Positions 3,485 to 24,606 of a DNA stretch of 64,000 bases are shown here, piece after piece. Each line of letters begins with the position of its first letter. Position 1 is the first letter of the stretch. Under the pieces are notes generated by a model, which saw nothing but the letters and a program-made list of their open reading frames with translations, did not search any database and had not been told where the DNA came from. Both the position numbers and the translations under genes were made by a program. Source of the DNA: Rhizobium tumorigenes (lineage in GTDB: Bacteria; Pseudomonadota; Alphaproteobacteria; Rhizobiales; Rhizobiaceae); assembly GCF_003240565.2 (NCBI RefSeq), contig NZ_CP117255.1, forward strand, positions 3,600,409 to 3,664,408. The letters run 5' to 3'.

Positions 3485-4453
3485 TTAGTTAGGGGCAGGC
3501 ACAATGACCGCCGGAGCCGCTGTCGTGCTGCTTTTGTCGTGGCCGATCGGCGACGGAACGACCGGCCCCCTGGGCGCCGGCGCGGGTGCCTGCTGTTGCG
3601 CGACAGGACGCGGTGCTGCGCGCAGCTCTACCCTACGCGGGCTTTGCGGTGCGATGCCAGGTGATGCCGCCGGCAATTGGAAAGCGGCCGGTAACTGGCC
3701 GGCGCTCGTAGGCGATACCACCGGGTAGATCGGATTGCCGGTGCGGCCAAGCGTCGGATCGACCGGCGGAGCGCTGTCATACGGGTTCCAGCCGGGCGCC
3801 GGGAAAGTGCCTGTGATGGTGTAGCCATACATGACACGAAGCAGTTGTTCGGCGGGTGCATGGGTGTCGCAAAGTCGCAGCCGGACCTGCACGGTGCCGC
3901 GATTCTGGAAAGCACCACGAGCATTGTCGCTGGAGCGCACCTGCTGCCAGGCATAGAGGCAGGTGTCTCCCTGCGCACTTTTGCCCGTGGCATAGCCGAA
4001 CGGTCCGTAGTTGTTCTGGACGTAAATACCGGACCGAACCATCGCCACGCCAGGCAATGCACGACGCATGTCCCTGTCGACCGTGCTGTCGCGGATCGAG
4101 GCATAGCCCAGCCCCTTGCGATTGTCGTAGTCGAGACCAACCGGCCCGAAGAACGTCACCTGCAGGTCGTTCTGTCCCGAGGTTGCGGCCGAGGTAAACA
4201 GGTAGATGTCCTGCTGGACGGCGTTGTTGTAGGAGTGCTGCACGACGTTGACGATCGACGGACCACCCGGAGGTGGCAGCGCAAACGCCTTGTCGCTCGT
4301 CACCGTCTCCGCGGGACCGGGAACCCGGATACCATCCCTTGACGCGCAGCCGGACATAGCCAGCGCCGCCGTGAGCCACAACGCGCCATAGACACTTTTT
4401 GTCATGCGTGACGGCGCGACGTGCCGAATCAGAGAACGAGGGACCATGCGCAT
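3485..4453 (-). CDS. bcsN: Cellulose biosynthesis lipoprotein-like BcsN
   Basis: BcsN is found in alphaproteobacterial cellulose operons and its exact role is not settled. The protein has a hydrophobic leader ending AALAMSGC, a possible lipoprotein box, a conserved middle (about 60-225) and a Pro/Ala/Gln-rich C-terminal tail. It sits 130 bases upstream of bcsA on the same strand, as expected. The start is uncertain: the first ATG at 4453 gives 322 residues, but an ATG at 4405 (MTKSVYGALW) places the basic residues right before the hydrophobic core and makes a more normal signal peptide. Neither start has a clear Shine-Dalgarno sequence. Assignment rests on overall resemblance and position. 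Confidence 0.82.
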   Translation of the reverse strand: MRMVPRSLIRHVAPSRMTKSVYGALWLTAALAMSGCASRDGIRVPGPAETVTSDKAFALPPPGGPSIVNVVQHSYNNAVQQDIYLFTSAATSGQNDLQVTFFGPVGLDYDNRKGLGYASIRDSTVDRDMRRALPGVAMVRSGIYVQNNYGPFGYATGKSAQGDTCLYAWQQVRSSDNARGAFQNRGTVQVRLRLCDTHAPAEQLLRVMYGYTITGTFPAPGWNPYDSAPPVDPTLGRTGNPIYPVVSPTSAGQLPAAFQLPAASPGIAPQSPRRVELRAAPRPVAQQQAPAPAPRGPVVPSPIGHDKSSTTAAPAVIVPAPN

Positions 4454-8483: not shown

Positions 8484-8620
8484 GGGATACCTGGCAAATT
8501 GGGAAGGCCGTCGGGTGGCGTGGTCAGCAATTAAGTTCCTGGAGCCGATTTCAGGCCGCATGAAAACGAATTAACCGGCAACGCAATGCCCTTAGCCTCT
8601 CGGTGAAGCCTCGACCTGCA

Positions 8621-8683: not shown

Positions 8684-9157
8684 CTAGTGGGTCGGTGCCG
8701 GTTGCAATGCCGGCTGGCTGCGCGCTGCGGTCAGTTCTGCGGTGGTGTGGTTGAGGCGGTCGGCCAGCACTCTCATGATATCCACGGCCATTTCGGGGAA
8801 GTCGGAGAGCAGCTTGAGGAAGTGCTCTTTGCTGATCCGCAGTGCCTCGACATTCGAGGTGGCCTTTACGGTCGCAGTACGGGAGACGTCGCAGAGTATG
8901 GCGATTTCTCCGACAATCGAGTTGACGTCGACATCGGCCACCTTGATCTCACCGGTCGGCGTATCGACCAGGATATCGGCGGTTCCTGCCAGCACGACAT
9001 AGGCAGCGTCGCCGAGATCGCCCTGGTGGAAAAGTATCTGGCCAGCACGGTAGCTGACGCGATCGGAGGTGAAGGCGAGCAGTTTCAGCTTCGCCGGCGC
9101 AATGCGTGCGAAAATCGGCACTCGCCGCAACATTTCGACTTCATCTCTTAACAGCAT
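8684..9157 (-). CDS. Stand-alone cyclic nucleotide-binding domain protein
   Basis: 157 residues made almost entirely of one Crp/Fnr-type cyclic nucleotide-binding (cNMP) domain. The phosphate-binding cassette is seen as GEIAI (83-87) followed by RTA (93-95), preceded by the beta-barrel signature HQGDLGDAAYVVLAG (44-58). There is no DNA-binding helix-turn-helix; the C-terminus is a short helix and an Ala/Gln/Pro tail. It is therefore a sensor or regulatory subunit rather than a transcription factor. It begins 36 bases after the degenerate ABC exporter gene on the same strand and is probably co-transcribed with it, so it may gate that protein in response to cAMP or cGMP. That partnership is inferred from position only. 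Confidence 0.85.
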   Translation of the reverse strand: MLLRDEVEMLRRVPIFARIAPAKLKLLAFTSDRVSYRAGQILFHQGDLGDAAYVVLAGTADILVDTPTGEIKVADVDVNSIVGEIAILCDVSRTATVKATSNVEALRISKEHFLKLLSDFPEMAVDIMRVLADRLNHTTAELTAARSQPALQPAPTH

Positions 9158-9193: not shown

Positions 9194-11911
9194 CTATAAC
9201 GATAAAAGTTCTTTGAACATCCCGTCGTGCTGCAAAAGATCTTCGGTTGTGCCGCTTTCGGCCAGCGTGCCGCCCTGAAATACCAGGACGCGATGGAACT
9301 GCTCCGCCAGCGCAACATTCGACAGAACCCAGATGATTGCCGGGTTGTGGTCGCTGTTTTCAATGTCGCGTAGAACGGTGCGGACGATCTGGTCCTGGAT
9401 GCGATGGTCGAGTGCAACCAGCGGCCTGTTAAAGATCAGATAGTCTGCGCGCTTCAGCAGCGCGCGGGCAAGGTTCAGCTTCTGGCGCTGGACGTTGGTC
9501 AGGCGCTTGCCGCCGGAGCCGACGTCGAAATCGAGGCCGATTGCCAATACGCTGTCCTGCAGGCCGAGCCTGTCGAAAAGATCCCGCATGATCACATGGA
9601 TCTGCTCAGGCGCATCGGCCTGCTGGTGGGCGATGCGCCCAAACAGCACGTTGTCCATCAATGTGGCCGAAGCCGTGAAGCGCTCGGGATCGTAGCGTTC
9701 GATGACGGCGTTCAGATCGGCCGGGATATGCTTGTGAAACTCCGTACGTGCCTCGACGATCTTGTTCATCAACTGCTTGGTGAGCAGACCGAAGCGATGA
9801 CGCGGCTCGATGTAGGAGAAACTGAGACGAATGATCGATGCCCGCTCTTCGGGTGTCGCCGTCTCGAAGTTGCGGCCGCCCCGTTTCTGCAGCAGGGCCT
9901 GATAGTCGGGAATGTCGTCCGCCGTCATGAAGGTCAGTTGCTGGAAGAAGGGATGGTCCGGCGGCAGGTCGTTGAACAACTCGACGGTGTTCTCGGCGAT
10001 CTCGATGCCCATGTCGTAGAGTTCGCTATTCAGGCCGCTGTCCTGGAAGAGCTTGATGAAATAGGGATGGGCTGCAAGCTTCCTGTTGGTCATCAGCGGA
10101 CGCTTCAGCGTGCCGAACAGCAGGTTTTCACCTACCGTCGCCTGCGTATTGTAGGCGGTGAATTCGAACGGCACGACCAGCCCGTCGAGATCCTGCTCCT
10201 TCAGCCGTTCGATGAGGGCGTGGCGCAGTTCGACGATCCGTTCGGTCAGGTCCTTGTGCGTCTCTGTATCGACCGTGGAGCGCAGCGCCATGTCGAGAAT
10301 ATCCTGCGACATCAGCACCGAATCGAGCACCGGTCGGATGACGCTGTAAAGATCGTCCGGTCCGGTCGCCCCGGCAGATGTGTAGTCGACCCAGTCGCTG
10401 TCGAGGCTGAGAGACGGGTTGCCGGCTCGCTTGGCCTCCGAAATGGCCCACTTGTTGCGCACCGCCGCCTCGCCCTCATAGGTGACGGTCGTCAGCGGGG
10501 CATGCTTCAAGCCATAGAGAATGTTGTCGCGCAACGTTCCGTGGAAGAAGTAGGTGTCCGAGCCGGCATAGGCGATGCGTCGGCCCGTTACCGATTCGGG
10601 TAATTCCAGGATGTCGTGCCCATCGACCGTCACCTTGCCACTGTCCGGCCAGACCAGCCGTCCGAAGGCCTCCGCCAGATACTCGCCGCCACTGCCACTC
10701 TCGCCGACGATCGCCACGGTTTCGCCGGGCTGGATCTCGAGCGAGATATGGTCGAGAACACGGGCGCCGCTGTCGTCGCTGATTGTCAGGTTGGTGGCGA
10801 CAAGCGCATGCTCCAGCCGTGTCGGAGATTTGGGGTCCATGACCTGCACGCGCGGGTCGATCAGCCTGTCGACGCTGAATTGCTCGACCACCTGATTGTA
10901 TTTTACCTGCACATCCTGACGCGACTGGTCCCAGTCGATCAGTTCCTTGAGCGGTCCTGGCAGATCCTTGTAGGCGTTGATGACTGCCACCAGTTGGCCG
11001 ATGTCCAGGCGCCCCTGCAAGGCGAGAAACCCGCCGATCGAATAGAACAGGAACGGTGTAACCTGGGCCAGGAAGTTATTGATGAACTTGACCAGGAACT
11101 TCCACTGGTAAAGGTCATAGCGGATCGAGAAGATCAGCCCCAGCCGCGCGGCGATATCAGCCCTTTCGAAGTTGGAAGTGTCGTTGCCATGGATGGTGCC
11201 GATGCCATCGACTATCTCGCCAACGCGGCCGGAAAGCTCGCGCGCCGTCAGTTGGCGCTGGCGGCCAAGCTCCAGCAGTCGCTTGCGCATACGGGGAATA
11301 ATGATCGCCTGGACCGCGACGATGCTGGCAGCGATCATGCCGAGCCAGAAATTCTGCATGATGATGAAGATCAGCGCGGTGACCGCCTGGCCGCCGAGCA
11401 GCGCAGGCTGTACGAATGCGTCGCCGGTAAAGCCGCCGAGGGGCTCTACCTCGTCCTTGATCATCGTCGCGATTTCAGCAGCCTTGACGCGCTTGAAGTG
11501 CGAAGGCGGAAAACGCAGGACCCGATCGACGAGTTCGAAGCGGATGCGGCGCAGCATGCGCTCGCCAAGCCTGCCCTTGTAGGTATTGATGTAGAGTTTG
11601 AAGAGACCGTTCAGCACCACCAGCGCCAGAAAAACCAGGCTCAGCGCGATCAGCATCTCGAAACGGTCGAGCTTCAGGCCCTTGAACACCTCGATATGGC
11701 CAACGAAAGGGATGTCGTAGGCGATATGCATGAAGGACTGCGTGGCGCCTTCGCCCTCGAAGCCCTTGCCCTGGATCGGGCCGTTGACGATCTGCTTTGG
11801 CAGGTCGAAGGACAGGAAGTAAGGCACCATGGACGCGGCAACGACGAGCAGGATCCATATCTGCTCGAGGCGCGTGTTCGACCAGATATATTTGGCGAGG
11901 CTTTTTTCCAT
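9194..11911 (-). CDS. ABC exporter-like protein with degenerate, interrupted ATPase domain
   Basis: 905 residues. Residues 1-345 resemble an ABC exporter membrane domain (helices near 17-35, 86-108, 170-205, 275-310). A nucleotide-binding-domain-like region begins near 365, but its ATPase motifs are altered. The Walker A position reads GESGSGGEY (403-411), with Gly-Glu where Lys-Ser/Thr is required. The Q-loop Gln is Ser 451. The signature reads LTNVQRQK (804-811) instead of LSGGQRQR. Walker B ends FNRP (827-830), losing both acidic residues. The H-loop His is Asn 865. About 330 residues separate the Q-loop region from the signature, where one expects about 70. The frame is intact, so this looks like a maintained pseudo-ATPase rather than a decayed gene. 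A cNMP protein follows and three glycosyltransferases precede it on the same strand. Confidence 0.85.
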   Translation of the reverse strand: MEKSLAKYIWSNTRLEQIWILLVVAASMVPYFLSFDLPKQIVNGPIQGKGFEGEGATQSFMHIAYDIPFVGHIEVFKGLKLDRFEMLIALSLVFLALVVLNGLFKLYINTYKGRLGERMLRRIRFELVDRVLRFPPSHFKRVKAAEIATMIKDEVEPLGGFTGDAFVQPALLGGQAVTALIFIIMQNFWLGMIAASIVAVQAIIIPRMRKRLLELGRQRQLTARELSGRVGEIVDGIGTIHGNDTSNFERADIAARLGLIFSIRYDLYQWKFLVKFINNFLAQVTPFLFYSIGGFLALQGRLDIGQLVAVINAYKDLPGPLKELIDWDQSRQDVQVKYNQVVEQFSVDRLIDPRVQVMDPKSPTRLEHALVATNLTISDDSGARVLDHISLEIQPGETVAIVGESGSGGEYLAEAFGRLVWPDSGKVTVDGHDILELPESVTGRRIAYAGSDTYFFHGTLRDNILYGLKHAPLTTVTYEGEAAVRNKWAISEAKRAGNPSLSLDSDWVDYTSAGATGPDDLYSVIRPVLDSVLMSQDILDMALRSTVDTETHKDLTERIVELRHALIERLKEQDLDGLVVPFEFTAYNTQATVGENLLFGTLKRPLMTNRKLAAHPYFIKLFQDSGLNSELYDMGIEIAENTVELFNDLPPDHPFFQQLTFMTADDIPDYQALLQKRGGRNFETATPEERASIIRLSFSYIEPRHRFGLLTKQLMNKIVEARTEFHKHIPADLNAVIERYDPERFTASATLMDNVLFGRIAHQQADAPEQIHVIMRDLFDRLGLQDSVLAIGLDFDVGSGGKRLTNVQRQKLNLARALLKRADYLIFNRPLVALDHRIQDQIVRTVLRDIENSDHNPAIIWVLSNVALAEQFHRVLVFQGGTLAESGTTEDLLQHDGMFKELLSL

Positions 11912-12082
11912 TGCTTACCGCATGCTTCTAAATTCGGGGGTCGCCACGCTCGTCTTGCTCTCTCGCATGCCGCTTTTCCCTGTCGCTCGGAATGCGAAAT
12001 GCCATGGCGGCGATCCGTTCCGATTCCCCGCCTTCAAGCTTATATCACAACAGTCTGCAAAACGAGGTCAAAGCTGCAACGG

Positions 12083-13213
12083 TCAGGCGGCATCTTGAAC
12101 GATAACAGCCGTCTTTTCGGCGCCATCCAGGTCGATAGAATGCGAAGCCGGCTTTGGTTTCTGCAGTGCTGTTGCAACGGACTGCTCCAGCATCTCGGCC
12201 GTAAGCCCTGCCTCCGGCAAAGCCGTCGCCAGACCGAGCGCCTCCAGCCGTTCTGCGCGGACAGATTGCTCCGTTTCACCACCGGCGGTGAACGGTACGA
12301 GGATAGAGCGGCAGCCGGTGACCAGCAGGTCGCAGACCGTATTGTACCCCGCCTGCGAGATCGATAGCTCGGCCCCACGCAGCAGCGACGGGAAATCGCT
12401 GCGAAAACGAACCAGCTGTGTATTGGCTGGAGCTTCGTTCTGAAGGGCCATGAAGTCCGCCTCGGGCATGTTCGGCCCCGCGATCAGGCACCAGCGCCGC
12501 TCGGTCGCGACGCGTCTCGCCGCTTCGAGAGAGGCGCGGACGAGGTCGCGACCAACCGCGCCGCCGCCGGCAGACACAACGATATCGAAGACCTCGACCG
12601 GCTCCGGTGGCATCGCCGGTGCCACAAGTCCGGTGTAGCGTATCTTGCCGGCGATATCGGCGGCCAATGGAAACGTTTCCTCAAGACGTACGAAACGGGG
12701 ATCGCCATGGACCAGCACGCCGTCGAAATGTGCACTGAGCGTGGCAACGGTTTCAGCGTCGCGCCCCGCCTTCTTCTGCTGCTGAAGGATGTCGCGCACC
12801 GATGAGAAAAGCTTTGGCCGCGGCTTTGCAGTCTCGGCGGCATCAAGCAGCGGCAGCAATTCGAACCGCATTTGCCGACGACCGAACGGAAAGGCCTCTA
12901 TGATGACGACGTCCGGTCGCGTCGCATGAAAGGTCGCAAGCAGCCGGTCGCGGCGGTGGTCCAGGAATGCCTGGTCGACCGGCGTGCCATCCTTGTGGGC
13001 AAGTCCCGAAAATCCCGATGTCGCAGCCACCACCGGAGGCAGGGCAATTGATGTGACATCGTCACCCGGAAATCCAGCAACGGGCAAACCGCCGGTCACC
13101 AGCGTAACGCTGCAGCCGCGACGCGCGAGCGCATTCGCAATGCGGCTTGCACGGGCGAGATGGCCGATGCCGAGCAGATGTTGAACGTAGAAGAATACCT
13201 TTGGTCCGCTCAC
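12083..13213 (-). CDS. Glycosyltransferase, GT28/MurG-like fold (first of two)
   Basis: Predicted GT-B fold transferase; donor and acceptor unknown. The N-terminal YVQHLLGIGHLARASRIANAL has the glycine-rich loop and His of MurG-like enzymes. The C-terminal half has ISQAGYNTVCDLL and a later GGETEQSVRAERLEALGLA, the sugar-nucleotide-binding pattern. The start is taken as GTG 13213, which overlaps the preceding stop as GTGA and has GGAAG 8 bases upstream; an ATG at 13246 would overlap the previous gene by 37 bases. It is the third of three coupled glycosyltransferase genes and is followed after 171 bases by the ABC-like gene. It resembles the product at 14486-15700, suggesting an old duplication. 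Confidence 0.82.
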   Translation of the reverse strand: MSGPKVFFYVQHLLGIGHLARASRIANALARRGCSVTLVTGGLPVAGFPGDDVTSIALPPVVAATSGFSGLAHKDGTPVDQAFLDHRRDRLLATFHATRPDVVIIEAFPFGRRQMRFELLPLLDAAETAKPRPKLFSSVRDILQQQKKAGRDAETVATLSAHFDGVLVHGDPRFVRLEETFPLAADIAGKIRYTGLVAPAMPPEPVEVFDIVVSAGGGAVGRDLVRASLEAARRVATERRWCLIAGPNMPEADFMALQNEAPANTQLVRFRSDFPSLLRGAELSISQAGYNTVCDLLVTGCRSILVPFTAGGETEQSVRAERLEALGLATALPEAGLTAEMLEQSVATALQKPKPASHSIDLDGAEKTAVIVQDAA

Positions 13214-14493
13214 GCCGAATACTTCCGGTTGTCGTCTTTTTGCCATTCCTCTTCGAACAGCCGGCTGAGGTGTCGGATGCTGGAATGATAGTCGAAGTTC
13301 TCGCGCACCCGCCGCTCTGCGGCCAAACCCAGACGGTGGCGCAGGGCAGGGTCGCGGATTGCGGTTTCCAGGGCCCGTGCCAGGCCGGTTGGGTCTTCGG
13401 AAGAGACCAGCAGCCCATTCTCGCCGTCGATCAAAAGTTCCGGAACGCCGGAGACCCGCGTCGAGATGCAGGCGAGACGCTGGCTGGAGGCCTCGACCAG
13501 CACGTTCGGCAGCCCATCGCGGTCGCCGTCGGCAGCAACGCGGCAGGCAAGCGCGAACACATCGGCACGTCGATAGTGTGCCAGCACCTCTTCCTGCGCC
13601 ATCGCACCCTTCCAGATGATGCGGTCGGCAATGCCGAGACTGTCCGCCAATACCTTAAGGTCGGGCAACCGGTCGCCGCCGCCGATATGCTCGAAACGCC
13701 AGTGAAGCGTCTCCGGCAACAGCGCCAGCGCCCGCAGCAGCACGTCGTAGCCCTTTTTTTCGACGGCGCGGCCGACGCTGAGCAGCAACACCGGTGCAGC
13801 GGGATCGCTGCCGTTGCGGTCGGAATGGTCAACTTCCGGAGGGCTGAAACGGGCGAGGTCGAGGCCGTGGTAACTTAGGTGCACACGCTCCTTGAACGGG
13901 GTCAAAGTTCGCATGTGGTCAAAACCACTATGAGTGCAGGTCACGGCCCATCGTGCCTGTCCGAGCTTTTCGGTCAGTTCCCAGTCGGGCGATGTCCAGA
14001 TATCCTTGGCATGCGCCGAACAGGTCCAGGGGGTGCCGGTGAGAATGCTTGCATAGGCGGTTACGGAGGCGGGGGTGTGTATGAAGTGGGCATGTAGCCA
14101 CTCGGCTCCGTCAGGCCACTCATGCGCCAGCACCATGGCCTGGCCAAGGCGGCGAAATCGGTTGCGCGTCGGGTCACGCTTCAGGTCGGTCCAGAATTGG
14201 CGCAGCAGCGGCCGAAAGCCGGGTCGGCGCCTGACCGATAGCAGCGCCTTGACGACGCGCAACGGCTCCTCGTGCAGATATTCCGGCAGGTAGACGACAC
14301 GCGCCTTGATCTCGTCGTGGACCGGATGCCGCTTCTTGTCGGTGGGACGGCGCATCGAGATCAGCGTCAGGTCGAAACCGGCCTGTTCCAGCCCAAGCAG
14401 TTCCTGGGCGATAAACGTTTCCGACAGCCGGGGATAGCCCTTCAGGACGACCAGAATTTTCTTTCGGATAGTCAATGGCTGCGCTCTACTCAC
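13210..14493 (-). CDS. Glycosyltransferase family 4 protein
   Basis: Retaining GT-B glycosyltransferase. The sequence has KGYPRLSETFIAQELLGLEQAGF near the N-terminus, typical of exopolysaccharide GT4 enzymes, then LLLSVGRAVEKKGYDVLLRAL, WKGAMAQEEVLAHYRRADVF and GDRDGLPNVLVEASSQ, where the EX7E-type donor site is expected. The beginning is uncertain. GTG 14493 overlaps the previous stop codon and TTG 14475 lies directly before the conserved TIRKKILVVLKGYP; much longer starts run through the upstream gene. It is sandwiched between two MurG-like transferases with overlaps on both sides, so the three probably build one glycan. The glycan is not identifiable. Confidence 0.85.
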   Translation of the reverse strand: MSRAQPLTIRKKILVVLKGYPRLSETFIAQELLGLEQAGFDLTLISMRRPTDKKRHPVHDEIKARVVYLPEYLHEEPLRVVKALLSVRRRPGFRPLLRQFWTDLKRDPTRNRFRRLGQAMVLAHEWPDGAEWLHAHFIHTPASVTAYASILTGTPWTCSAHAKDIWTSPDWELTEKLGQARWAVTCTHSGFDHMRTLTPFKERVHLSYHGLDLARFSPPEVDHSDRNGSDPAAPVLLLSVGRAVEKKGYDVLLRALALLPETLHWRFEHIGGGDRLPDLKVLADSLGIADRIIWKGAMAQEEVLAHYRRADVFALACRVAADGDRDGLPNVLVEASSQRLACISTRVSGVPELLIDGENGLLVSSEDPTGLARALETAIRDPALRHRLGLAAERRVRENFDYHSSIRHLSRLFEEEWQKDDNRKYSA

Positions 14494-15700
14494 CGACGAC
14501 GGAAAGCGAGGGATAGCTCTCCCGCCCGTCGAGCCACTCGCCGACGATCTGCGAGATATTGACGAGACCCTCGAGCCGCATGTTTTTCTCGCCGCTCTTC
14601 GATGGAGGTGCACGATTGACCAGCTTCTTCAAGGCTGCCGATAACTGCAATGCGTCCTCGGACTCTTCTGGAAGCAGCATGTCGACCAGTCCCAGTGCAC
14701 TCGCCCGCTGGGCGCGGATCAGTTGTTCCTCGCGCGGTCGCGTCCGCGGGATGATAAGCGCCGGCTTGTCGAAAGACAGGATTTCGCAATAGGTGTTGTA
14801 GCCACCCATGGCGACCACGGCTGTCGCACCATCGATCAGTTCTTCCATGCGCTTGTCGAACTCGATCACCTCGAGACAACTGATCTTGTTGGCACGCTCG
14901 ACAAGTTCGGTCCGCTCACGGGCCGGCATGTAGGGTCCGAGCACGATCAGCGTCTTGTACTGCAGCGAGCGATCCTGTTCGTAGGCGTTGACGATATCTC
15001 GCACGAGATCCGCGCCATCGCCGCCGCCGCCTGTTGTCACCAGAATGTAGTCCTCATCCGGCACGTGCTCGGATTTCTTGCCTTGCGGAACGCTGCGCTG
15101 CAGGAAGCCGACAAAGTCCATTTTCCGTCGTACGCCGGCGGGAACGTCGAGGCCGAGAAGCGGATCATAGAAATCAGGCGGCCCATAGACCCACACCCGG
15201 TCATAATACTGGTCGATCTTCTCCAGCATGTTGCTCTTCTTCCACTCGGCATCAAGCAGATGTGGTGCATCCATCACATCGCGCATGCCGAGCACCAACG
15301 TCGTTCCGCGCGCCTTGAGATATTGCAGCGTGTCCTCGACTTCGCCCTTGAGACCGAGCGGTTCCTTGTCGACGATGAAGATGTCCGGCTGGAAATTTTC
15401 GGCCGTCTGGCGGATGATCGCCTGGCGCATCTTCAGCGTGTCTTTCAGGTCGACGTCGCCGGACATCGAGGTGTATTCGCCGTCCTTGAGTTTGATGACG
15501 CTCGGCACCTGAACGAAGTCGACGCGGGCACGGTAGTCGAATGCCCCGGCGATGGTTGCGCCGGAAATAATGAGGACATTCAGCCCGCGATAGTCGCCAA
15601 CCAGCGAATGTGCGATCGTCCGGCAGCGGCGCAGGTGTCCGAGCCCGAATGTGTCATGGCTGTACATGAGTATGCGTGCATCTTCAACGCGCCGTTTCAT
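14486..15700 (-). CDS. Glycosyltransferase, GT28/MurG-like fold (second)
   Basis: First gene of the glycosyltransferase operon, about 404 residues. The N-terminal ILMYSHDTFGLGHLRRCRTIAHSL and the C-terminal VVAMGGYNTYCEILSFDKPALIIPRTRPREEQLIRAQRA match predicted glycosyltransferases of the MurG-like (COG4671) type. Start ATG 15700 has GAGG 9 bases upstream; an upstream TTG at 15706 adds only two residues. The end overlaps the next gene's start by 8 bases if GTG 14493 is used. The paralogue at 12083-13213 shares the GLGHL and GYNT blocks. Donor sugar and acceptor cannot be told from sequence. Confidence 0.83.
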   Translation of the reverse strand: MKRRVEDARILMYSHDTFGLGHLRRCRTIAHSLVGDYRGLNVLIISGATIAGAFDYRARVDFVQVPSVIKLKDGEYTSMSGDVDLKDTLKMRQAIIRQTAENFQPDIFIVDKEPLGLKGEVEDTLQYLKARGTTLVLGMRDVMDAPHLLDAEWKKSNMLEKIDQYYDRVWVYGPPDFYDPLLGLDVPAGVRRKMDFVGFLQRSVPQGKKSEHVPDEDYILVTTGGGGDGADLVRDIVNAYEQDRSLQYKTLIVLGPYMPARERTELVERANKISCLEVIEFDKRMEELIDGATAVVAMGGYNTYCEILSFDKPALIIPRTRPREEQLIRAQRASALGLVDMLLPEESEDALQLSAALKKLVNRAPPSKSGEKNMRLEGLVNISQIVGEWLDGRESYPSLSVVGE

Positions 15701-15799
15701 GGGCAAAACCTCAAGTCCAAACGTCTTTCGCAGTTAGTTTGCAAGAGGGAGCCAATGCCGTCATGCGCGGCGCGCGCTGTTTCGCGTCCGCACCACACG

Positions 15800-16975
15800 C
15801 TATTTGTAGGGATCGGCAGCATCGCGCAAGCCATCTCCCAGAAAATTGAACGCAAGTATCACAAGAATTACTGGAATCATCGGGAACAGAAGCCAAGGAT
15901 AAAAGGCGATAACACTGACGCTTCGGGCCTCTGTCAGCAAGATACCCCAACTCGTGATGGGTGGTCGCAAACCAAGTCCCAGAAAGCTCAGCGCGGTTTC
16001 GCCGAGGATCATGCTCGGGATCGAAATCGTCGCGGTGGCGATCAGGTGCGACATGAAGCCTGGTACGAGATGCCGGCCGATGATGCGTCGCGATTTGGCG
16101 CCCATCAGCTGTGCCGCCAGCACATAATCCTCTTCGCGCAGCGACAGGAGTTTTGAGCGGACAGCGCGCGCAAGCCCGGTCCAGTCCAAAATGCCGAGAA
16201 TGATGGTGATCCCGAAGTAGACCAGGATCGGGCTCCAGGTCACCGGCATGATCGCCGCCAGCGCCATCCACAGCGGCAGGCTCGGTAGCGATTGCAGAAC
16301 TTCGATAACCCGCTGCACCAGGAGATCGAACCAGCCACCGTGATAACCGGCAAGTCCGCCGAGCACGATGCCGAGAATGAAGCTGATGGATATGCCGATC
16401 AGGCCGATGGTCAGCGAAATGCGTGCACCGTAGATGATCCGCGAGAACACGTCCCGCCCGAGCCTGTCTGTTCCCAGCAGATACATCTGCCCGCCCACAG
16501 CCGGGCAGACCAGATGGATGTTGGAGGGAATGGCGCCCCAGAAATTATAGGCATCCCCACGGCAGAGGAAGCGGATCGGCTGCACGTCGTCAGGCTTATC
16601 CGTATAGGACCTGCGCAACGTCTCGATATCGAGCGACATGCTGCGACCGTAGACGAAGGGCGCCACCAGCTTTCCGTCATGGAAGATGTGGACCGCCTGG
16701 GGCGGCGCATGGATGAAGTCGACATTGCGCGTGTGCAGGCCATAGGGCGCAATGAACTCGGCGGTGATAACGACGCCGTAGAGGAAAAGCAGGAATATGC
16801 CGGAGGCGACAGCCACCCGATGGCGCTTGAATTTCCACCACATAAGCTGCTTTTGCGACGCCATGTGATAGCGCGTCTGGCCGGCCGACATCGCCTCGAA
16901 CTGCATCGGGTCGAATGGTGCCGTCGAGACGTAATGCTGCATCGGCGCCCCGGGTTCTGGCAAGGATGAGGTCAA
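15800..16975 (-). CDS. ABC peptide-type importer permease, OppC/DppC/YejE family
   Basis: Inner-membrane permease of 391 residues, longer than usual because of a 100-residue segment between the first helix (about 54-75) and the transport domain. That segment should be periplasmic and contains a Cys pair (CRGD, HLVCPAVGG). The core has GTDRLGRDVFSRIIYGARISL, the OppC-family signature, and an EAA loop around LSLREEDYVLAAQLMGAKSRRIIGRH that docks the ATPase. The start overlaps the preceding permease stop by 4 bases. It is the last gene of a four-gene operon read ATPase, binding protein, OppB-like, OppC-like. The substrate is probably an oligopeptide or similar solute, but this is by family only. 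Confidence 0.9.
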   Translation of the reverse strand: MTSSLPEPGAPMQHYVSTAPFDPMQFEAMSAGQTRYHMASQKQLMWWKFKRHRVAVASGIFLLFLYGVVITAEFIAPYGLHTRNVDFIHAPPQAVHIFHDGKLVAPFVYGRSMSLDIETLRRSYTDKPDDVQPIRFLCRGDAYNFWGAIPSNIHLVCPAVGGQMYLLGTDRLGRDVFSRIIYGARISLTIGLIGISISFILGIVLGGLAGYHGGWFDLLVQRVIEVLQSLPSLPLWMALAAIMPVTWSPILVYFGITIILGILDWTGLARAVRSKLLSLREEDYVLAAQLMGAKSRRIIGRHLVPGFMSHLIATATISIPSMILGETALSFLGLGLRPPITSWGILLTEARSVSVIAFYPWLLFPMIPVILVILAFNFLGDGLRDAADPYK

Positions 16976-17970
16976 CGGATGCTCCTGCCCTGCAAGCGGA
17001 TACGGGGGTCGAGAAAGCCAAGGGCTATGTCGGAAATCAGCACGCCGATAACATTGAGTACGGCGAGGAACATCAGGAACGATCCGGCAAGATACATGTC
17101 CTGGCTCTGCAACGCCTTGATCAGCATAGGCCCGGTGGTCTCCAGCGACAGCACGATCGCTGTTATTTCAGCGCCTGAGATGATCGACGGCAGGATCGAA
17201 CCGATATCGGCGACGAAAAAGTTGAGGGCCATGCGCAGCGGGTATTTGATCAGCGCGCGCAGCGGGTGAAGACCCTTGGCCCGCGCGGTGATGACGTATT
17301 GCTTCTGCATCTCGTCAAGCAGGTTGGCGCGCAGCCTCCGGATCATGCCGGCGGTACCGGCCGTGCCGACGATGACGACGGGGATCCACAGATGCGAGAG
17401 GATGGAACTCGCCTTCTCCCAGCTCATCGGCTGGGACAGATATTTTTGATCCATAAGGTGGCCGATGGAGACGCCGAACCAGACATTGGCGAAATACATC
17501 AGGATGAGCGCCAGCATGAAGTTCGGAATGGCGATCCCGAGCAGCCCGAAAAACGTCAGGCTATAGTCGCTCCAGCTGTACTGATGGGTCGCCGAATAGA
17601 TGCCGATGGGAAACGCGATCAACCATGTCAGCAGGATGGTGGTGAACGACACGAGGATGGTCAGCCACAGTCGGTCGCCGACCACCTGCGATACCGGCAG
17701 CTGATATTCGAAGGAATAGCCGAAATTGCCGTGCAACATGCCGGCCACCCAATAGACGTACTGGACTGCCACCGGCTTATCCAGGCCGTATTCCTTGCGA
17801 AGCTCCTGTATTTCCTGAAGGTTGGCGGTCTCGCCCTGGGCTTGCAGTTCAGCGATCTGGCTTTCGAAGAAGTCGCCCGGTGGCAACTGGATGATGGTGA
17901 ACACCAGCATAGAGATGACTAGAAGCGTCGGAACCATGACGGCAATGCGCCAGACGATATATCTAAGCAC
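16972..17970 (-). CDS. ABC peptide-type importer permease, OppB/DppB/YejB family
   Basis: 332-residue inner-membrane permease beginning MLRYIVWRIAVMVPTLLVISMLVF, the standard OppB-type first helix. It has the periplasmic loop with LRKEYGLDKPVAVQYVYWVAGMLHGNFGYSFEY, and a cytoplasmic EAA loop around EMQKQYVITARAKGLHPLRALIKYPLRMALN. Six helices are predictable. It overlaps the binding-protein gene by 8 bases and the next permease by 4, so the operon is translated as a chain. It should form the heterodimeric pore with the product of 15800-16975. Confidence 0.92.
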   Translation of the reverse strand: MLRYIVWRIAVMVPTLLVISMLVFTIIQLPPGDFFESQIAELQAQGETANLQEIQELRKEYGLDKPVAVQYVYWVAGMLHGNFGYSFEYQLPVSQVVGDRLWLTILVSFTTILLTWLIAFPIGIYSATHQYSWSDYSLTFFGLLGIAIPNFMLALILMYFANVWFGVSIGHLMDQKYLSQPMSWEKASSILSHLWIPVVIVGTAGTAGMIRRLRANLLDEMQKQYVITARAKGLHPLRALIKYPLRMALNFFVADIGSILPSIISGAEITAIVLSLETTGPMLIKALQSQDMYLAGSFLMFLAVLNVIGVLISDIALGFLDPRIRLQGRSIR

Positions 17971-19882
17971 GGGGATGGTCCTCCGTCAGCCAGAAGGTAT
18001 CGGGCATGTAGATGCCGAGAAAGCATGTCGGGTCGAAGCCGTAGAGCGCCTTTTCAGGCACGTTCTGCAACCGCTTGGAGTGCAGGATGGGCTGCAGGGT
18101 GCCATTGATCAAGCCGATCGAAAAGACCTGCTCGGTATAGATCGCCAGCATTTTTTGCCAGATTTCCGTTCGTTCCTCGAACGACGCTGCGATACCCCAT
18201 TGTGCCAGGAGCTCGTTCAGCTGCGCAGCCTCGGGAACATCGGGGGCAACCCCTTGGCTGCCGCCGGACAGGTAATACATGCCCCAGAGCGGCCATTGAA
18301 GCTGGTCGTCCATCGTGGGGGCCAGTTCGCCGGGGTTCATGTCTGCGGTCGGTACGCCGTTATCCAGCCCGTACCAGATGGACATCATGATACGCCCGCC
18401 CATCGCGCGGCTGCGGAAGATGTCGCGCTGCGAGGAGCGGGTAAAGGCGGCAATGCCGATCTTCCGCCAGTGGTCGGTGACCAGCTCCATCACATCGGTG
18501 TCGAGCGAGCTTTCGCCCGCCGTCTCGACGGTGATTTCCATCGGCCGCCCGTCTGGCAGCAGGCGCAGGCCATCGGCGTTGCGCTTGTCGAGGCCAGCGG
18601 CGTCAAGCAGGGTGTTGGCCTGGGCCGGGTCGTGGTTCACCCACGCCTTGGCGTATTCCGGCTTGAAGAGCGGGCTTTCGGGCAGCACGGTGTCAGCGCT
18701 TTCGGCACCGAGGCCATAGAAAGCCGCCATGTTGATCTCATGGCGGTCGATCGCCATGGACAGCGCCCGGCGTACCCTGACGTCGCGGAAAACATCGCGC
18801 CAGACCTTGTCGGCGCAATTGAGATTTGGCAACAGCGCCACGCGGGAGCCGCGCGCCATTTTCCAGAGGTTTACCTTCACCGGGTAGCGCTTTTCGGCGT
18901 CTTTCAGGAACGCATAATCATCAAAATCGATGCCGGTCGCCTGCAGGTCGCTTTCGCCGGCACCGGTTTTGGCGGCTATGATCGACGACGAACTGACATT
19001 CAAAATGAAGCGGTCGATATAGGGAAGCTGCCGCCCGTTCTCGTCGACACGGTGGAAATACGGGTTGCGCTCGAAAACGAACTGCTCGGCCGGTGGTGCG
19101 GTGGTGTTGTGCCACGGGTCCAGCACCGGCAGGGCCGGATTTTCCGGACGGTATGCTCGACCCATCTTGATGTGCATCTCCTGCCACTTGCGCGCATGAT
19201 TTTCCTTCATGAGCGAAGACAGCCTGATCTCGTCCTGGTATTTCTTGTGGAACTGCTTGAGGTAGTGAGCGGGGCCGGCAAGCACCAGCGGCTGCGGGGC
19301 AGCGATGATCGGCAGGAAGTTGGGGTTCGGCTTGTCCCAGGAGTAACGCACCGTCAGGGAATCGATCACCTCGAACTTCGGCAGGCTGCCATGCGGCCTC
19401 AGTTCCAGAGCACCGCCGCCCGGAGTGAGCTGCTTGTTGAGGATGACGTCTTCCCACCAGTAGCGAAAATCGTCGACGGTGAACGGCGCGCCATCCGACC
19501 ATTTATGGCCGGGCCGGAGGTGGAAGGTGAAGACCCGGTCGTCTTCGATGTCGTAGGATTCGAGGATGTCCGGCTGCATCTGCAACTTCTGGTCATAGCC
19601 GATCAGTCGCGCATAGCCGTAGATCGTCATGAACCGGAGATCGCTCTGCCCGCCGATGATGGTCCGCACCGAGCCTCCATATTGGCCGGGCTGGCGCCCC
19701 ATCGCCTTTAGCTGGATGACCCTAGGGCGGTCCGGCAGGCGGTCGGCCATAGCTGGCATCTGGGCTGCATCGAGCCAAGGCCGAAGATATTCCGGCTCGA
19801 TATCGCGATCTGCAGCGCGCGCCGAAAACGCCGGCAGCATGGTCGATGCGATTGCACCAAGGAACGTCCGACGGGTTACCAC
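17963..19882 (-). CDS. ABC importer substrate-binding protein, family 5, Tat-type signal
   Basis: Periplasmic binding protein of 639 residues that would capture the solute for the adjacent permeases. It starts at GTG 19882, overlapping the ATPase stop by 7 bases. The N-terminus carries [11 protein letters not shown], a twin-arginine (Tat) pattern, followed by a hydrophobic stretch ending ARA. Family 5 features include FTFHLRPGHKWSDGAPFTVDDFRYWWED (about 112-140) and DVRVRRALSMAIDRHEIN. It is larger than the usual 500-550-residue peptide-binding proteins and is closer in size to YejA-type proteins. An export route by Tat would mean that it folds in the cytoplasm. The ligand is unknown. Confidence 0.9.
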   Translation of the reverse strand: MVTRRTFLGAIASTMLPAFSARAADRDIEPEYLRPWLDAAQMPAMADRLPDRPRVIQLKAMGRQPGQYGGSVRTIIGGQSDLRFMTIYGYARLIGYDQKLQMQPDILESYDIEDDRVFTFHLRPGHKWSDGAPFTVDDFRYWWEDVILNKQLTPGGGALELRPHGSLPKFEVIDSLTVRYSWDKPNPNFLPIIAAPQPLVLAGPAHYLKQFHKKYQDEIRLSSLMKENHARKWQEMHIKMGRAYRPENPALPVLDPWHNTTAPPAEQFVFERNPYFHRVDENGRQLPYIDRFILNVSSSSIIAAKTGAGESDLQATGIDFDDYAFLKDAEKRYPVKVNLWKMARGSRVALLPNLNCADKVWRDVFRDVRVRRALSMAIDRHEINMAAFYGLGAESADTVLPESPLFKPEYAKAWVNHDPAQANTLLDAAGLDKRNADGLRLLPDGRPMEITVETAGESSLDTDVMELVTDHWRKIGIAAFTRSSQRDIFRSRAMGGRIMMSIWYGLDNGVPTADMNPGELAPTMDDQLQWPLWGMYYLSGGSQGVAPDVPEAAQLNELLAQWGIAASFEERTEIWQKMLAIYTEQVFSIGLINGTLQPILHSKRLQNVPEKALYGFDPTCFLGIYMPDTFWLTEDHPRA

Positions 19883-21762
19883 GTGCGCAATTCCTGGATG
19901 TTGGCGTCGCGATGGGCGCGGACGAAATGGCCATCGCCGAGATCTGCGTAGGCAAGTTCCTCGCCTTCGGCCTCAGCGAAATTAGGCCCCCAGTCCCGCT
20001 TCGAACTCGGGCCGACTGCTTGCAGCCCGGCAAAATCCAGAGGACGGTCGAGGTCGGGGAAGGGGACAGCGGACAGCAGCGAACGGGTATAGGGATGCAC
20101 CGGATCGCGCAGGATGATGCCCCTGGGCGCAATCTCGACGATGCGTCCGCGATACATCACGGCAATGCGGTCGGCCATGTAATCGACGACGGCCAGATTG
20201 TGCGAGATGAATAGGTAGGTGAGCCCGAGTTCCTTCTGCAGGTCCTTCAGCAGGTTGAGAATCTGCGCCTGCACGGAAACATCGAGCGCCGAGACCGGCT
20301 CGTCCAGGATCAGCAGCTTCGGACCGAGTGCCAGTGCCCGGGCGATGCCGATACGCTGGCGCTGCCCGCCGGAAAAGCTGTGTGGATAGCGGCTGAGGTA
20401 GCGTTCGTCGAGGCCGATCGCGCGCATCAGCGCCGAGACTTTCTGCTTCCGGTCGGCGCTGTCGCCGCGACCGTGTATTTCCAGAGGCTCGCTGAGAATG
20501 TTGCGCACGGTCATGCGCGGCGAAAGCGACGAAACCGGATCCTGGAACACCATCTGGATGTTGGTGCGCATTTCCATCAGTTCGTCGCCGCTCACGGACA
20601 GCACGTCGACGTCGCCGTGGCCGTCGTTGAAAACGACAGTACCGCTGTCCGGCTGCACGGCGCGCATCAATATCTTGCTGACGGTGGTCTTGCCGCAGCC
20701 GCTTTCGCCGACCAGTCCGAGGCACTCGCCGCGACGAATGTCGAAGCTGACATTGTCGACAGCACGCATCTCGGAACCGCTACCCCTGTCGAAAAGGCCG
20801 CGTTTCTTGGTCTTGTAGGTCTTGGCAAGATTGCGCACCGTCAGCAGCACTTCCGGCCCTGCGGGCTCGCTCTTGCGCTTTGAGGAGAATGTATCGATGT
20901 TGACAGGCACGTCGCGCAGTGATTTCAACCGCTCGCCGGGCTTCATGTCGAAATGCGGTACGGCAGACATCAGCCCCTTCAGATAGGGATGTTGCGGGTT
21001 CCTGAAGATTGTCTCCACGGGACCGGCCTCCATCACCTCGCCGTGGTAAATGACTACAACCTCGTCGGCCATGTTTGCGACCACGCCGAGATCGTGGGTG
21101 ATCAGCAGCATCGCCATCTGCATCTTGCTCTGCAGATCGCGCAGCAGGGTAAGGATTTGTGCCTGGATGGTCACATCGAGGGCCGTCGTCGGCTCGTCTG
21201 CGATCAGCAGCGCCGGGCTGCAGATCAGCGCCATGGCGATCATTGCGCGCTGGCGCATGCCGCCGGAAAGCTCGAACGGATACATGTTGAAGGTGCGCTT
21301 TGGATCCTGAAAGCCCACCAGCTCCAGCATTTCTTCGGTCTTGCGGCGCTGCTCTTCTTTGGTCGCAGTGCTGTGGATGCGAAGCGCTTCGCTGATCTGG
21401 TTGCCGACAGTGTGAAGCGGCGACAACGACGTCATCGGCTCCTGAAAAATGGTCGCCATCCTCCCGCCACGCAGCGCCCGCATGGGAGCACTGTCGCGAG
21501 ACAGGCTCAAAATGTCGGTGGTGAGGCCGTTTTTTGGGTCGGTGAACAAGATGCTGCCGGAGGCTGTAGCAGGCGTGGGCAAAATGCCCATGATTGCCTG
21601 GCTTATGATCGACTTTCCGGATCCGGATTCGCCCACCAAGGCGGTCACCTTGCCCGGCAAGATCCGGAGGCTGGCGCCTTTGACGACGGACAGCCTATCG
21701 CCATAGAGCGAAAAGGACACGTCGAGATTTTCGATACGCAGCAAGTCCGTCTCAGGCGCCAT
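19876..21762 (-). CDS. ABC importer ATPase with two fused nucleotide-binding domains (DppD-DppF/YejF type)
   Basis: 628 residues containing two complete ATPase domains that energise the importer. Domain 1 has Walker A GESGSGKS, signature [10 protein letters not shown], Walker [13 protein letters not shown] and H-loop THD. Domain 2 has [35 protein letters not shown] and SHN. Each ends in the peptide-transporter tail motif [12 protein letters not shown] or [12 protein letters not shown]. Start ATG 21762 ([13 protein letters not shown]) begins right at the domain; a GTG at 21807 would add 15 residues. It is the first gene of the operon. Fusion of the two ATPases and the presence of a large binding protein both recall the YejABEF system, although the gene order differs. 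Confidence 0.92.
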
Positions 21763-21916
21763 GCAAAAAGAATTTCCCCGTATCACCTGTGACCCGCGCC
21801 GGCACACTAACGTAGGCTATAACGGGTGTCCAGTTAGCCGGTTCCAGTCTCCTGACAGAAATCTGGTTCGTCTTCAGATACCTATCGGAATGGCGCGAAG
21901 GAGCTTATGCTTGGCT

Positions 21917-23257
21917 CTACTGGACGATTTTTCCGGGTTGCCGCCGGATATCCTGTTTCTTGGCGTCACGATGCAGAAGAATGACTTGCTCTGCCTCGGA
22001 TAACCCGTCCGTCGCGGCATCGTAGAAAACATCTTGATCACCCTGCGATGTAACGACAGGCTTCGGATGAAGTACAGTCAGTTTCTGGCCTACGCCGCGA
22101 AGCTTTTCTTCGCCAAGCGTTACCCAATCGCCGCCGCTATAGCCAACGAATGCCTTGCTGGCGACCACTTCGCGGGAATACTTCTTGGTCAGCGACTGCA
22201 GTCGTTGTACTTCGTTGACGGCAGAGCCGAACGCGGAGAACGTCAGCCGGTCCCTGAGGCCGACATTGCCGAACATAACATTGCCGACATGCAAGCCGAT
22301 GCCATAGCGGATCGGGTTTAGCTTTCGAGACAGGCGATCTTCGTTCAGTTGCGCGACACGCATCTGCGCCTGCGCGACCGCAGCAAGCGCTGCCCGGCAG
22401 GCAACCTTGGACGGGTCCCTGTGCCTGTCGCAGGGATACACCGCCAGAAATCCGTCCCCGAGGAAACTCATGATTTCGCCGCCGTTCCGATTGAACGGCG
22501 CGGCTATCGCGTCGAAGAACGCGTTCAGCGTGTCGATATACGCCTGGCGCCCCTCTTTCTCGGCAAATACCGTCGATTGACGCATGTCTCCCATCACCAA
22601 AGCCGCACGAATGGTCTCGCCGTCGCCGCGCCGGATCTGGCCGTTCAGCACGCGTCTGCCCGCATCGCCTCCGAGATAGGTGGTCAGCATATTGTTGGCG
22701 AGCTTGCCGAGCACCGCCATCTTGGCTGCCAGCGCCAGATGGTTTTGCATCCGCAGCAGGGCGCCGATCATCTCTTCGCTGAAGCCGCTGGCGCCGTCCG
22801 TTGCCCACGAACCCATCATGCCTTGCGCCGAGCCGTCGCCGAACGTCTGCACGAAGGCTATGTAGTCGGTAACTTTCTCCTTGCGGAGTTCCTCGAATAT
22901 CGGGAAGTCGAGCGGCCCGTCGCCGTCGATGCGGCGGCGCATGTAGTCGAGATTGCTGGTCAGCAGATGGTAATAGGGGCTTTGCAGGAACCGCTCCGGC
23001 TTTTCGCCGGAATGGCGATAGCCTTCGATCGTCAGCCCGCTTGCGCGACGCCAGGTGAAGCCCAGCGCATCGTAAAGTGGATGCAGCATCGAAAACGTCA
23101 GATGCACACGGGCAATCGGCAGGCCGGATGCGGAAATACGGTCGCAGAAACCGCGCACGACGTTCTCGAGGTTTTCACCCGTCAGCGCCGCTTGCGTCAG
23201 CCACTCCGCCACCTTGTCGAGAAAAATGTCGGAGACGCTGGAAAAGGAGTTCGTCAT
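21917..23257 (-). CDS. Class III adenylate/guanylate cyclase, soluble
   Basis: Nucleotide cyclase of 446 residues from ATG 23257. The N-terminal 200 residues are a sensor-like domain of the type common in rhizobial cyclases, with no membrane segment. The cyclase domain shows both metal-binding Asp residues (MGDMRQST, D224; SFLGDGFLAVY, D268) and the transition-state Asn and Arg (NEVQR, N348 and R352). The substrate-specifying Lys expected four residues before the second Asp is Ser 264, and the position before VN that is usually Asp or Thr is Ser. The core machinery is present, but base preference or activity may be atypical. A DUF3095 gene lies just upstream on the same strand. Confidence 0.86.
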   Translation of the reverse strand: MTNSFSSVSDIFLDKVAEWLTQAALTGENLENVVRGFCDRISASGLPIARVHLTFSMLHPLYDALGFTWRRASGLTIEGYRHSGEKPERFLQSPYYHLLTSNLDYMRRRIDGDGPLDFPIFEELRKEKVTDYIAFVQTFGDGSAQGMMGSWATDGASGFSEEMIGALLRMQNHLALAAKMAVLGKLANNMLTTYLGGDAGRRVLNGQIRRGDGETIRAALVMGDMRQSTVFAEKEGRQAYIDTLNAFFDAIAAPFNRNGGEIMSFLGDGFLAVYPCDRHRDPSKVACRAALAAVAQAQMRVAQLNEDRLSRKLNPIRYGIGLHVGNVMFGNVGLRDRLTFSAFGSAVNEVQRLQSLTKKYSREVVASKAFVGYSGGDWVTLGEEKLRGVGQKLTVLHPKPVVTSQGDQDVFYDAATDGLSEAEQVILLHRDAKKQDIRRQPGKIVQ

Positions 23258-23424
23258 GCAACCGGTTCTCTGGATTGGCGTCAGCTGCCCAGTCGGAAGG
23301 CGCAACTGCTACCCAGGCAGATAAGAACATTTCAGAGTGAGGCAATGGGCATGGCAACGTCCGTCGCGTAAAACGCAGTTCCACCGGACGAACAGCGTCA
23401 GGCCGGGCCCGGTGCGAGAGCCGA

Positions 23425-24606
23425 CTAGCCTCCAGCTGGCATCTCAGCCCCAGACTGCTGCTTGGCACGAAGATCCGCGGCAGCCATTGCGTAGCCGCCA
23501 TTGGCGCCATCGATGAAATGCATGTGGTCGCGCGACAGGGGCGTTGGCACGAAGCAGGTCATCAGGGCCGAGGCCTGCCGGTGCAATCCGTAGCGGCATA
23601 TGCCCGCGGCTTCCGCTTCCTTCAGGATTTGCCCCAGTCGTGCGAGGCGGTCGGCATCGAGGTCGATCGTCATTTTCAGGCCGTCGTCGAATTTCCGGAA
23701 GTCGGAATTGGCCGCGACGTCCTGCTTGTAACGGCGTGCATTGAAGGACCCGAGTGTCAGCCGAAGCTTATGCAGGGCGATGGTCAGGCTGATTTGTGCG
23801 GCGATGGCAAGTTTGCGGCGCAATATCCGTCCGTCCAAGGCGGTCGCGCGCGCTTCGTCCGCTACCCCGCCAAGCGCGAGACCGAGGTTGGGGCCGTCGA
23901 CGGGCACCGGATGGCCGTCGCGACCTTGCTCGGCGACGATCGCAATGATGCCAGCCACAAGGCTCTGGAACTCCCGGCCATGGCCGCGCGCATCCGGCAC
24001 CGCGATGACGGAGACGATTTCCCCGTTGCGCGCCTCGATCGGGTTCCAGCGACAGGAGAGACCTGTAAGGTCCGGACGCATCTGGGTCTGGTCGGCTTCG
24101 ACACCGTAGTTACCGGTCTTCATCTGCGCCTCGGCCCAAGTGGTGCCGCCGCCGGCAAACATGGCGTATGAGACGAAATCCGTTGGGCTGAAGCGCGCCA
24201 CCCTAACGTCCATTCCCTGTGCCCTGATGTCGGCCATCGGCACGAGCGCGCATCGCAGGCTCAGGTGCAGGTCGGCGGCCACGAAGGACTGCACAGAGGC
24301 CAGCGCCTGGCGTGTGCGCTCGAGGCCGGCAGACGGAATGGCAATGCACGCCCCGTCTCCGCCGAAGACGAAAGGATAGTCGGCGCGTCCGAGTGCGTTG
24401 AGAACGGCGGAGATAACGCTGGCACCGGCCATGTTGACGGCCTTGTAGCGACCGGCTGCAATCGCTTCCGTCGAAGAAACGATATCGGCCAGCGCCAAGT
24501 ACCAGTCGTCGGGTAGGGGACTATAGTTGCCGTCGTCCGTCACCCCTTCGAAACGGGTGAAAACCGGCAGGGCACTGAAGAACGCATCATGTGTCAAATC
24601 GTCCAT
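23425..24606 (-). CDS. DUF3095 protein, nucleotide-cyclase-like fold
   Basis: 393-residue soluble protein of unknown function that matches the DUF3095 family as I know it. It has two stretches resembling class III cyclase metal sites: LALADIVSSTEAI with Asp 41, and YPFVFGGDGACIAIP with GGDG at 82-85. This suggests a cyclase or GGDEF-like fold that binds a nucleotide, though the later Asn and Arg motifs are not recognisable. The gene lies 168 bases upstream of a cyclase gene on the same strand and may act with it. Start ATG 24606 (MDDLTHDAFFSALP) is the only reasonable choice. Confidence 0.8.
   Translation of the reverse strand: MDDLTHDAFFSALPVFTRFEGVTDDGNYSPLPDDWYLALADIVSSTEAIAAGRYKAVNMAGASVISAVLNALGRADYPFVFGGDGACIAIPSAGLERTRQALASVQSFVAADLHLSLRCALVPMADIRAQGMDVRVARFSPTDFVSYAMFAGGGTTWAEAQMKTGNYGVEADQTQMRPDLTGLSCRWNPIEARNGEIVSVIAVPDARGHGREFQSLVAGIIAIVAEQGRDGHPVPVDGPNLGLALGGVADEARATALDGRILRRKLAIAAQISLTIALHKLRLTLGSFNARRYKQDVAANSDFRKFDDGLKMTIDLDADRLARLGQILKEAEAAGICRYGLHRQASALMTCFVPTPLSRDHMHFIDGANGGYAMAAADLRAKQQSGAEMPAGG

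Follow-up and report, generated by a model that had tools for sequence, protein, structure and literature searches.

An ABC exporter-like protein of Rhizobium tumorigenes with a degenerate, conserved ATP site and a cyclic-nucleotide-binding partner

INTRODUCTION

ATP hydrolysis is the defining property of ATP-binding cassette (ABC) exporters. Known exporters with one degenerate ATP site retain one working site, and roles other than pumping are known for CFTR and SUR. Here, we describe a protein of 905 amino acids (aa) encoded in a 64,000-nucleotide stretch of Rhizobium tumorigenes (contig NZ_CP117255.1, positions 3,600,409 to 3,664,408; referred to as the window, with positions counted from its first letter), which has the fold of an ABC exporter and lacks the usual ATP-site residues. 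The closest known systems are the type IV (ABCB-like) exporters MsbA, TmrAB, TM287/288, PCAT1 and SUR2B, from which it differs by the loss of these residues, by an insert of about 263 aa with repeats, and by a cyclic-nucleotide-binding (CNB) partner.

The loss of catalytic residues in a fold that is kept is a feature shared with exporters that have one degenerate site (reviewed in PMC7756269) and with CFTR and SUR. In contrast to those exporters, the protein described here is presumed to be a homodimer, so no active site should remain. HetC of Nostoc likewise combines the fold of an ABC exporter with a CNB domain; it is described as an active PCAT that needs its N-terminal CNB domain for function, that has a peptidase, and whose ATPase has a residue that is essential in vivo (PMC10986499). 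Assignment as a HetC-type CNB-PCAT was rejected, with no C39 peptidase Pfam domain and a predicted dead ATP site in our protein. A search of the open-access literature returned nothing on this exporter family, and to our knowledge none of the ABC exporter homologues characterised so far has this residue set. The fold and the domains are already known; their state and their combination are, as far as we know, new.

RESULTS

Gene and fold

A preliminary description of this locus, made from the sequence alone, had proposed an ABC exporter with an intact frame in which every ATPase motif is substituted. The frame was borne out: it runs on the minus strand over 905 codons from an ATG, with no stop inside.

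9194..11911, minus strand: ABC-exporter-like protein, 905 aa, predicted to be ATPase-dead (open reading frame (ORF) and translation, PF00664/PF00005, AlphaFold2 model)
10877..11911, minus strand: transmembrane domain (TMD), residues 1-345, the family's most conserved region (conservation by region; ratio of nonsynonymous to synonymous substitution rates (dN/dS) 0.02-0.05)

The protein scored 64 bits with PF00664 (ABC_membrane; cut-off, 28) and 55.4 bits with PF00005 (ABC_tran; cut-off, 25). An AlphaFold2 model (pLDDT 83.1, pTM 0.78) had the three-dimensional fold of a type IV ABC exporter, with a TMD followed by a nucleotide-binding domain (NBD). The TMD core was the most conserved part of the protein and contained invariant charged residues. 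Identification as MsbA (TIGR02203) was rejected at 186.2 bits against an NCBIfam cut-off of 602. In public records, the protein and many of its relatives are named ABC transporter ATP-binding protein. Long open frames also lie on the plus strand at 9404-10603 (399 aa) and 10616-12367 (583 aa) and are probably shadows of the coding strand.

The ATP site

The residues of the ATP site were compared in a set of 121 close proteins, comprising the query and the best 120 of 5911 matches.

10679..10705, minus strand: degenerate Walker A GESGSGGEY, residues 403-411 (translation and 121-protein alignment)
10559..10561, minus strand: Q-loop position, Ser451 (translation, alignment)
9479..9502, minus strand: degenerate signature LTNVQRQK, residues 804-811 (translation, alignment)
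9425..9430, minus strand: Walker B end, Asn828-Arg829 (translation, alignment)
9407..9409, minus strand: retained D-loop Asp835 (121/121 close proteins)
9317..9322, minus strand: H-loop position Ser864, with Asn865, the choice of the preliminary description (alignment with His-keeping relatives)

The motif set of an ATP-hydrolysing ABC transporter is absent and is replaced by G409, E410, S451, LTNVQ, N828-R829 and S864, with Gly409 at the Walker A Lys position and Glu410 at the Ser/Thr position. At positions 409, 410, 451, 807, 828, 829 and 864, none of the 121 proteins had the canonical residue, and at 806 two of them had it; the replacements E410, N828, R829 and N865 were each identical in 120/121. 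The earlier proposal would have been contradicted by near relatives in which Walker A and Walker B are canonical, and none was seen (0/121). That proposal stood for Walker A, the Q-loop, the signature, Walker B and the H-loop and did not hold for D-loop Asp835 and signature Gln808, both present in all 121 proteins. It also needs correction at the H-loop, since relatives that keep the His read IWVLHRAD where this protein reads IWVLSNVA, a gapless match that places the His at Ser864 and not at Asn865. The A-loop aromatic residue is apparently lost as well (Asp379 in 121/121), at a spot where the alignment is less certain.

We then considered selection on the gene. Four regions were compared in nine pairs of close Rhizobium genes; the TMD had a dN/dS of 0.02-0.05, and the insert and the NBD parts had values of 0.03-0.18, the ratios being rough for several, more distant pairs in which dS was near or above 1 (near saturation). 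Since the canonical residues are gone, their replacements are fixed in close proteins and dN/dS is low, the comparison identifies the ATP site as a dead site maintained under purifying selection and shows that it does not stem from chance, decay or sequencing error. As the preliminary description had proposed from the open frame, this appears to be a maintained protein, from which conventional ATP hydrolysis is not expected (0/121 canonical residues, dN/dS 0.02-0.18).

Wider family and erosion of the site

Family searches covered the order and the phylum. A match at E <= 1e-60 was found in 94/297 genomes drawn from the order and in 21/299 drawn across the phylum, all 21 in the same class (alphaproteobacteria). 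We gathered 420 members, leaving out proteins that did not exceed 800 aa or 250 bits, and reduced them to 154 at 80% identity. Parts of the ATP site were retained in distant relatives only: among the 154, Lys409 was kept in 86, Ser/Thr410 in 38, Gln451 in 44, Asp828 in 21 and Glu829 in 71, and none had the full canonical set. The best single member had 6 of 8 scored features; this most complete protein, L149_1, keeps GKT, LSGAQ, LDEA and the His and has lost the Q-loop Gln, and a long frame of the opposite strand overlaps its own.

In a FastTree tree of the transmembrane columns only, which has long branches and many weak forks, the 154 members grouped together, apart from two canonical exporters encoded in the same genome. 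The minimum number of changes on this tree was 13 for Lys, 24 for Ser/Thr, 15 for Gln, 13 for Asp, 17 for Glu and 11 for His. We infer that the ATP site was probably eroded stepwise and repeatedly from an active ancestor.

Insert and repeats in the pseudo-NBD

The NBD is interrupted by an insert whose length is 263 in 116/154 members and 258-266 in 33 more among those tabulated. Comparison of family profiles showed that a stretch at the Q-loop start, which ends TLRDNILYG in the query, recurs twice further on.

9677..10471, minus strand: insert of about 263 aa within the NBD, residues 481-745 (length table, 154 non-redundant members)
10511..10576, minus strand: copy 1 (native) of the Q-loop/helical-subdomain start, residues 446-467 (profile comparison)
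10001..10192, minus strand: copy 2, residues 574-637 (hhalign)
9530..9718, minus strand: copy 3, residues 732-794, running into the signature (hhalign)

The copies matched each other in hhalign with E values of 1.4e-14 (copies 2 and 3), 6.9e-7 (1 and 2) and 2.9e-6 (1 and 3). When all positions of the protein are ranked by conservation, the top 70 include N596 in copy 2, N754 and G758 in copy 3, and the insert residues N498, W507, R563 and R722; they contain no position from Walker A, the Q-loop, LSGGQ, Walker B or the H-loop.

The CNB partner

The gene for a small CNB protein follows the ABC gene downstream, beginning 36 bp past its stop codon.

8684..9157, minus strand: separate CNB protein, 157 aa (PF00027, E 9.8e-20)

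Its phosphate-binding cassette, GEIAILCDVSRTATV, is intact. In 178 family loci, the CNB domain was a C-terminal fusion in 16, adjacent in 151 and adjacent with overlapping frames in 7, and in 4 the stretch ended too early; it was thus fused or adjacent in 174/178, which is every locus with room to show it, with the limit that the profile was built from some of the same loci and that some loci overlap each other. Two non-overlapping sets gave the same picture: 80/80 named loci (78 adjacent, 2 overlapping) and 20/20 distant loci (14 adjacent, 5 fused, 1 overlapping).

The Glu and Arg of the cassette of CNB domains hold the cyclic phosphate. Both (E84 and R93) were present in 81/81 separate copies; seven fused copies had the Arg in 7/7, with Glu in 4 and Asp in 3. 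With a fused or adjacent CNB domain and an intact cassette, the family has the make-up of a CNB-regulated membrane protein. The preliminary description had suggested a regulated protein while missing this partner, and the suggestion is supported because the partner is present wherever the locus is long enough.

Some relatives carry a further domain. Five of six longer relatives that were scanned had a C-terminal GGDEF-type domain; in P0154, P0164, P0204, P0216 and P0236 (about 1170-1210 aa), a degenerate GGDEF-type domain lies C-terminal to the CNB domain. A simple pattern search for a GGDEF-like motif in 56 relatives over 1140 aa found none.

Relatives without an NBD

A search with a more canonical relative yielded matches at E <= 1e-50 in 29/398 phylum genomes, the sole one outside the class (G403) being a protein without an NBD, and led to four short relatives that end after the TMD. 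A protein search started from one of these returned 307 proteins at E <= 1e-3; its candidates were restricted to 0.55-1.75x query length, which shuts out full-length members of the family. The 120 listed of these and the query (323-521 aa) had no PF00005 (precomputed), no G-x4-GK[ST] and no LSGGQ. Of 52 nearly invariant TMD positions of the family, the NBD-less proteins kept 86% (41 sampled of 121), a family sample 99% and two canonical exporters 18%. The positions that they dropped include F134, K337 and F345, located at coupling loop 1 and close to the linker to the NBD. The NBD-less proteins belong to the same TMD clade and differ by their lack of an NBD and their length; they occupy one side of a branch with a support of 73, and NBD loss and an earlier split both fit this branch. 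That this related clade exists without an NBD suggests a capability of the transmembrane part that does not require ATP.

The gene setting of the NBD-less relatives is different. Multicopper oxidase and CopB genes neighbour the relative in locus L190 (5531-6730), and multicopper oxidase, CopB and PCuAC genes that in L191 (6540-7781); L193 has a cytochrome c' gene in place of copper genes. Pfam annotation covered these three of the four loci, L192 being the fourth. On plasmids, 82 records matched at E <= 1e-60, which may include full-length family members. In regions from six of the top 30 records (one per genus, six genera), copper oxidase or resistance genes adjoined in 6/6; the Thalassospira plasmid has the gene layout of L192 and may be the same record. 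None of the six regions had an adjacent CNB gene listed; in one of them, a gene with a CNB domain lies roughly 5 kb upstream. In one region, an RbbA-like ABC gene lies 4 kb off on the other strand. The NBD-less relatives in L190, L191 and L206-L211, which lie in copper-resistance operons, are often labelled 'ABC transporter ATP-binding protein' and also 'transmembrane domain-containing protein'.

Neighbouring genes

Upstream of the ABC gene, the minus strand of the window encodes glycosyltransferases (GTs), an importer and cyclases.

12083..13246, minus strand: GT28-type GT a (Pfam; homologue in 64/80 loci)
13210..14613, minus strand: GT4-type (Glycos_transf_1) GT (longest ORF, true start may be internal; 64/80 loci)
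14486..15706, minus strand: GT28-type GT b (longest ORF; 64/80 loci)
15800..21807, minus strand: Opp-type importer (OppC, OppB, SBP5, double-NBD OppDF), a frequent neighbour
21917..23305, minus strand: class III nucleotidyl cyclase (PF00211; Pfam)
23425..24606, minus strand: DUF3095 protein (near the ABC gene in 18/80 loci)
26150..27796, minus strand: membrane/2Fe-2S ferredoxin/class III adenylate cyclase (CyaB 3r5g match)

Two GT28-type genes and one GT4-type gene, in one operon or divergent, were found near the ABC gene in 64/80 named and 14/20 distant loci. Opp hits above 60 bits, some of which are other ABC genes, were found in the 80 loci for OppB and OppC (52), SBP5 (57) and OppDF (73); no gene matching the window's Opp ATPase was found in the four NBD-less loci.

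The cyclase at 21917-23305 contains SFLGDG and AFGSAVN, and the positions that we take to be those usually choosing adenine look altered. The cyclase at 26150-27796 has CyaB 3r5g as its best solved match (E 1.3e-24, aligned through the catalytic region) and is possibly redox controlled. In the window genome, two of five PF00211 cyclase loci (E <= 1e-4) lie within 20 kb of the ABC gene. Across 12 genomes (9 genera), a sample chosen with part of the outcome already known, 16/97 cyclase hits lay within this distance against 0.8 expected, and 8/12 genomes were positive, three of the eight from one genus. A repeat with all unused matching order genomes of <=10 contigs (11 genomes, 8 genera) gave 11/95 hits against 0.9 expected, in 7/11 genomes (P 1.4e-6 for random placement, kinship ignored).

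The stretches DIVSST and FGGDGA of the DUF3095 protein resemble metal-binding parts of class III cyclases; no paper naming DUF3095 was found in the open-access literature search. Next to it lies a 197-aa ORF without a Pfam match (24616-25209, minus strand), possibly no gene. Downstream of the ABC gene, 1162-4453 and 5835-8561 (both minus strand) encode cellulose synthase CelA, BcsN and malto-oligosyltrehalose synthase TreY, each of which is rare within 10 kb of the ABC gene elsewhere (1/80 loci).

DISCUSSION

We propose, with about as much confidence as doubt, that this is an ABC-exporter-fold membrane protein that would have given up ATP hydrolysis, would be controlled instead by its CNB partner, and may serve as a gate or regulator of a glycan or glycolipid step. 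The protein would dimerise like other half-exporters. The neighbouring cyclases would supply a cyclic nucleotide to the CNB protein, which would bind it and dock on the pseudo-NBD, with the repeats as the likely dock; docking would shift the coupling loops, opening or closing the transmembrane part. The latter could then pass or present, without ATP, an anionic glycan or glycolipid from the adjacent GTs. It is a tentative and rather unlikely idea that the family represents an ATP-independent, cyclic-nucleotide-gated exporter fold in which the NBD, with its helical-subdomain start in triplicate, is a ligand-receiving lever, cAMP or cGMP acts through the CNB subunit on a glycan or glycolipid gate, and the copper-operon cousins are the gate minus the lever.

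Several points weigh against the proposed CNB-controlled gate. Its ligand, cargo and transport are things that we infer. HetC is a reminder that the ligand of a CNB domain is not always a cyclic nucleotide: its N-terminal part bound ppGpp (Kd 59 uM), and no significant protection was seen with cAMP (PMC10986499). A cyclase within 20 kb was absent in 4/12 and 4/11 genomes, just 30/80 named loci contained a homologue (>100 bits) of the two cyclases of the window at a distance of up to 10 kb, and the GTs were absent from 16/80 and 6/20 neighbourhoods. The presence of the NBD-less clade in copper operons makes a single common cargo doubtful, and this clade also dropped V98 and L127, two positions without an obvious link to the NBD interface.

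The protein may instead be a signalling receptor or scaffold without transport, its TMD a mere anchor and its pseudo-NBD and CNB partner holding or switching the neighbouring GTs. The conserved GT neighbours (64/80 and 14/20 loci), the further degenerate GGDEF-type domain in some relatives, and the rank of W507, R563, N596, R722 and N754 among the top 70 positions, which fits a binding platform, would agree with this. A mere anchor is harder to reconcile with a transmembrane core that is the most conserved part, invariant charged residues included, and that the NBD-less clade retains in a different gene setting, and we regard this explanation as unlikely, if worth keeping in mind. We consider it improbable that Glu410, Asn828 and Arg829 make up an altered site with remaining nucleotide or metal binding, as in a slow or unusual ATPase or a nucleotide sensor. 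Their fixation in 120/121 close proteins and the Walker A Lys (86/154) and Walker B Glu (71/154) of distant members point that way; against this, Lys, Gln, Glu and His are all lost in this lineage, and motif residues changed repeatedly across the wider family, at least 11-24 times each on the TMD tree.

Known degenerate halves of heterodimeric exporters keep an ATP-binding Walker A, and here both Walker motifs are gone, which makes it highly improbable that the protein is the silent half of a heterodimer with its active half encoded elsewhere, as the preliminary description had also offered. Degenerate sites are common in heterodimeric exporters (PMC7756269), and the window genome has 107 further ABC-type matches; however, no second family member was seen there (next best match 79 bits, against 2033). 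Another exporter was nearby in at most 2/100 loci (L132, perhaps L177), 11 other hits matching the double-NBD Opp ATPase, so the heterodimer found no support nearby; a distantly encoded partner lay outside this test. That we have misread an ordinary ABC exporter is hardly credible: the public annotation as ABC transporter ATP-binding protein would favour it, and the motif counts in 121 close and 154 wider members and the MsbA score, 186 where 602 is the cut-off, oppose it.

In practical terms, many public records label these proteins ATP-binding transporters. A maintained family with a dead engine, a nucleotide-sensor partner and an engine-less branch would show that the exporter TMD fold can do work other than pumping. 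It would also offer a natural series, from a nearly canonical through a dead to an absent NBD, for asking how pumps become gates or receptors, a question usually put to CFTR and SUR.
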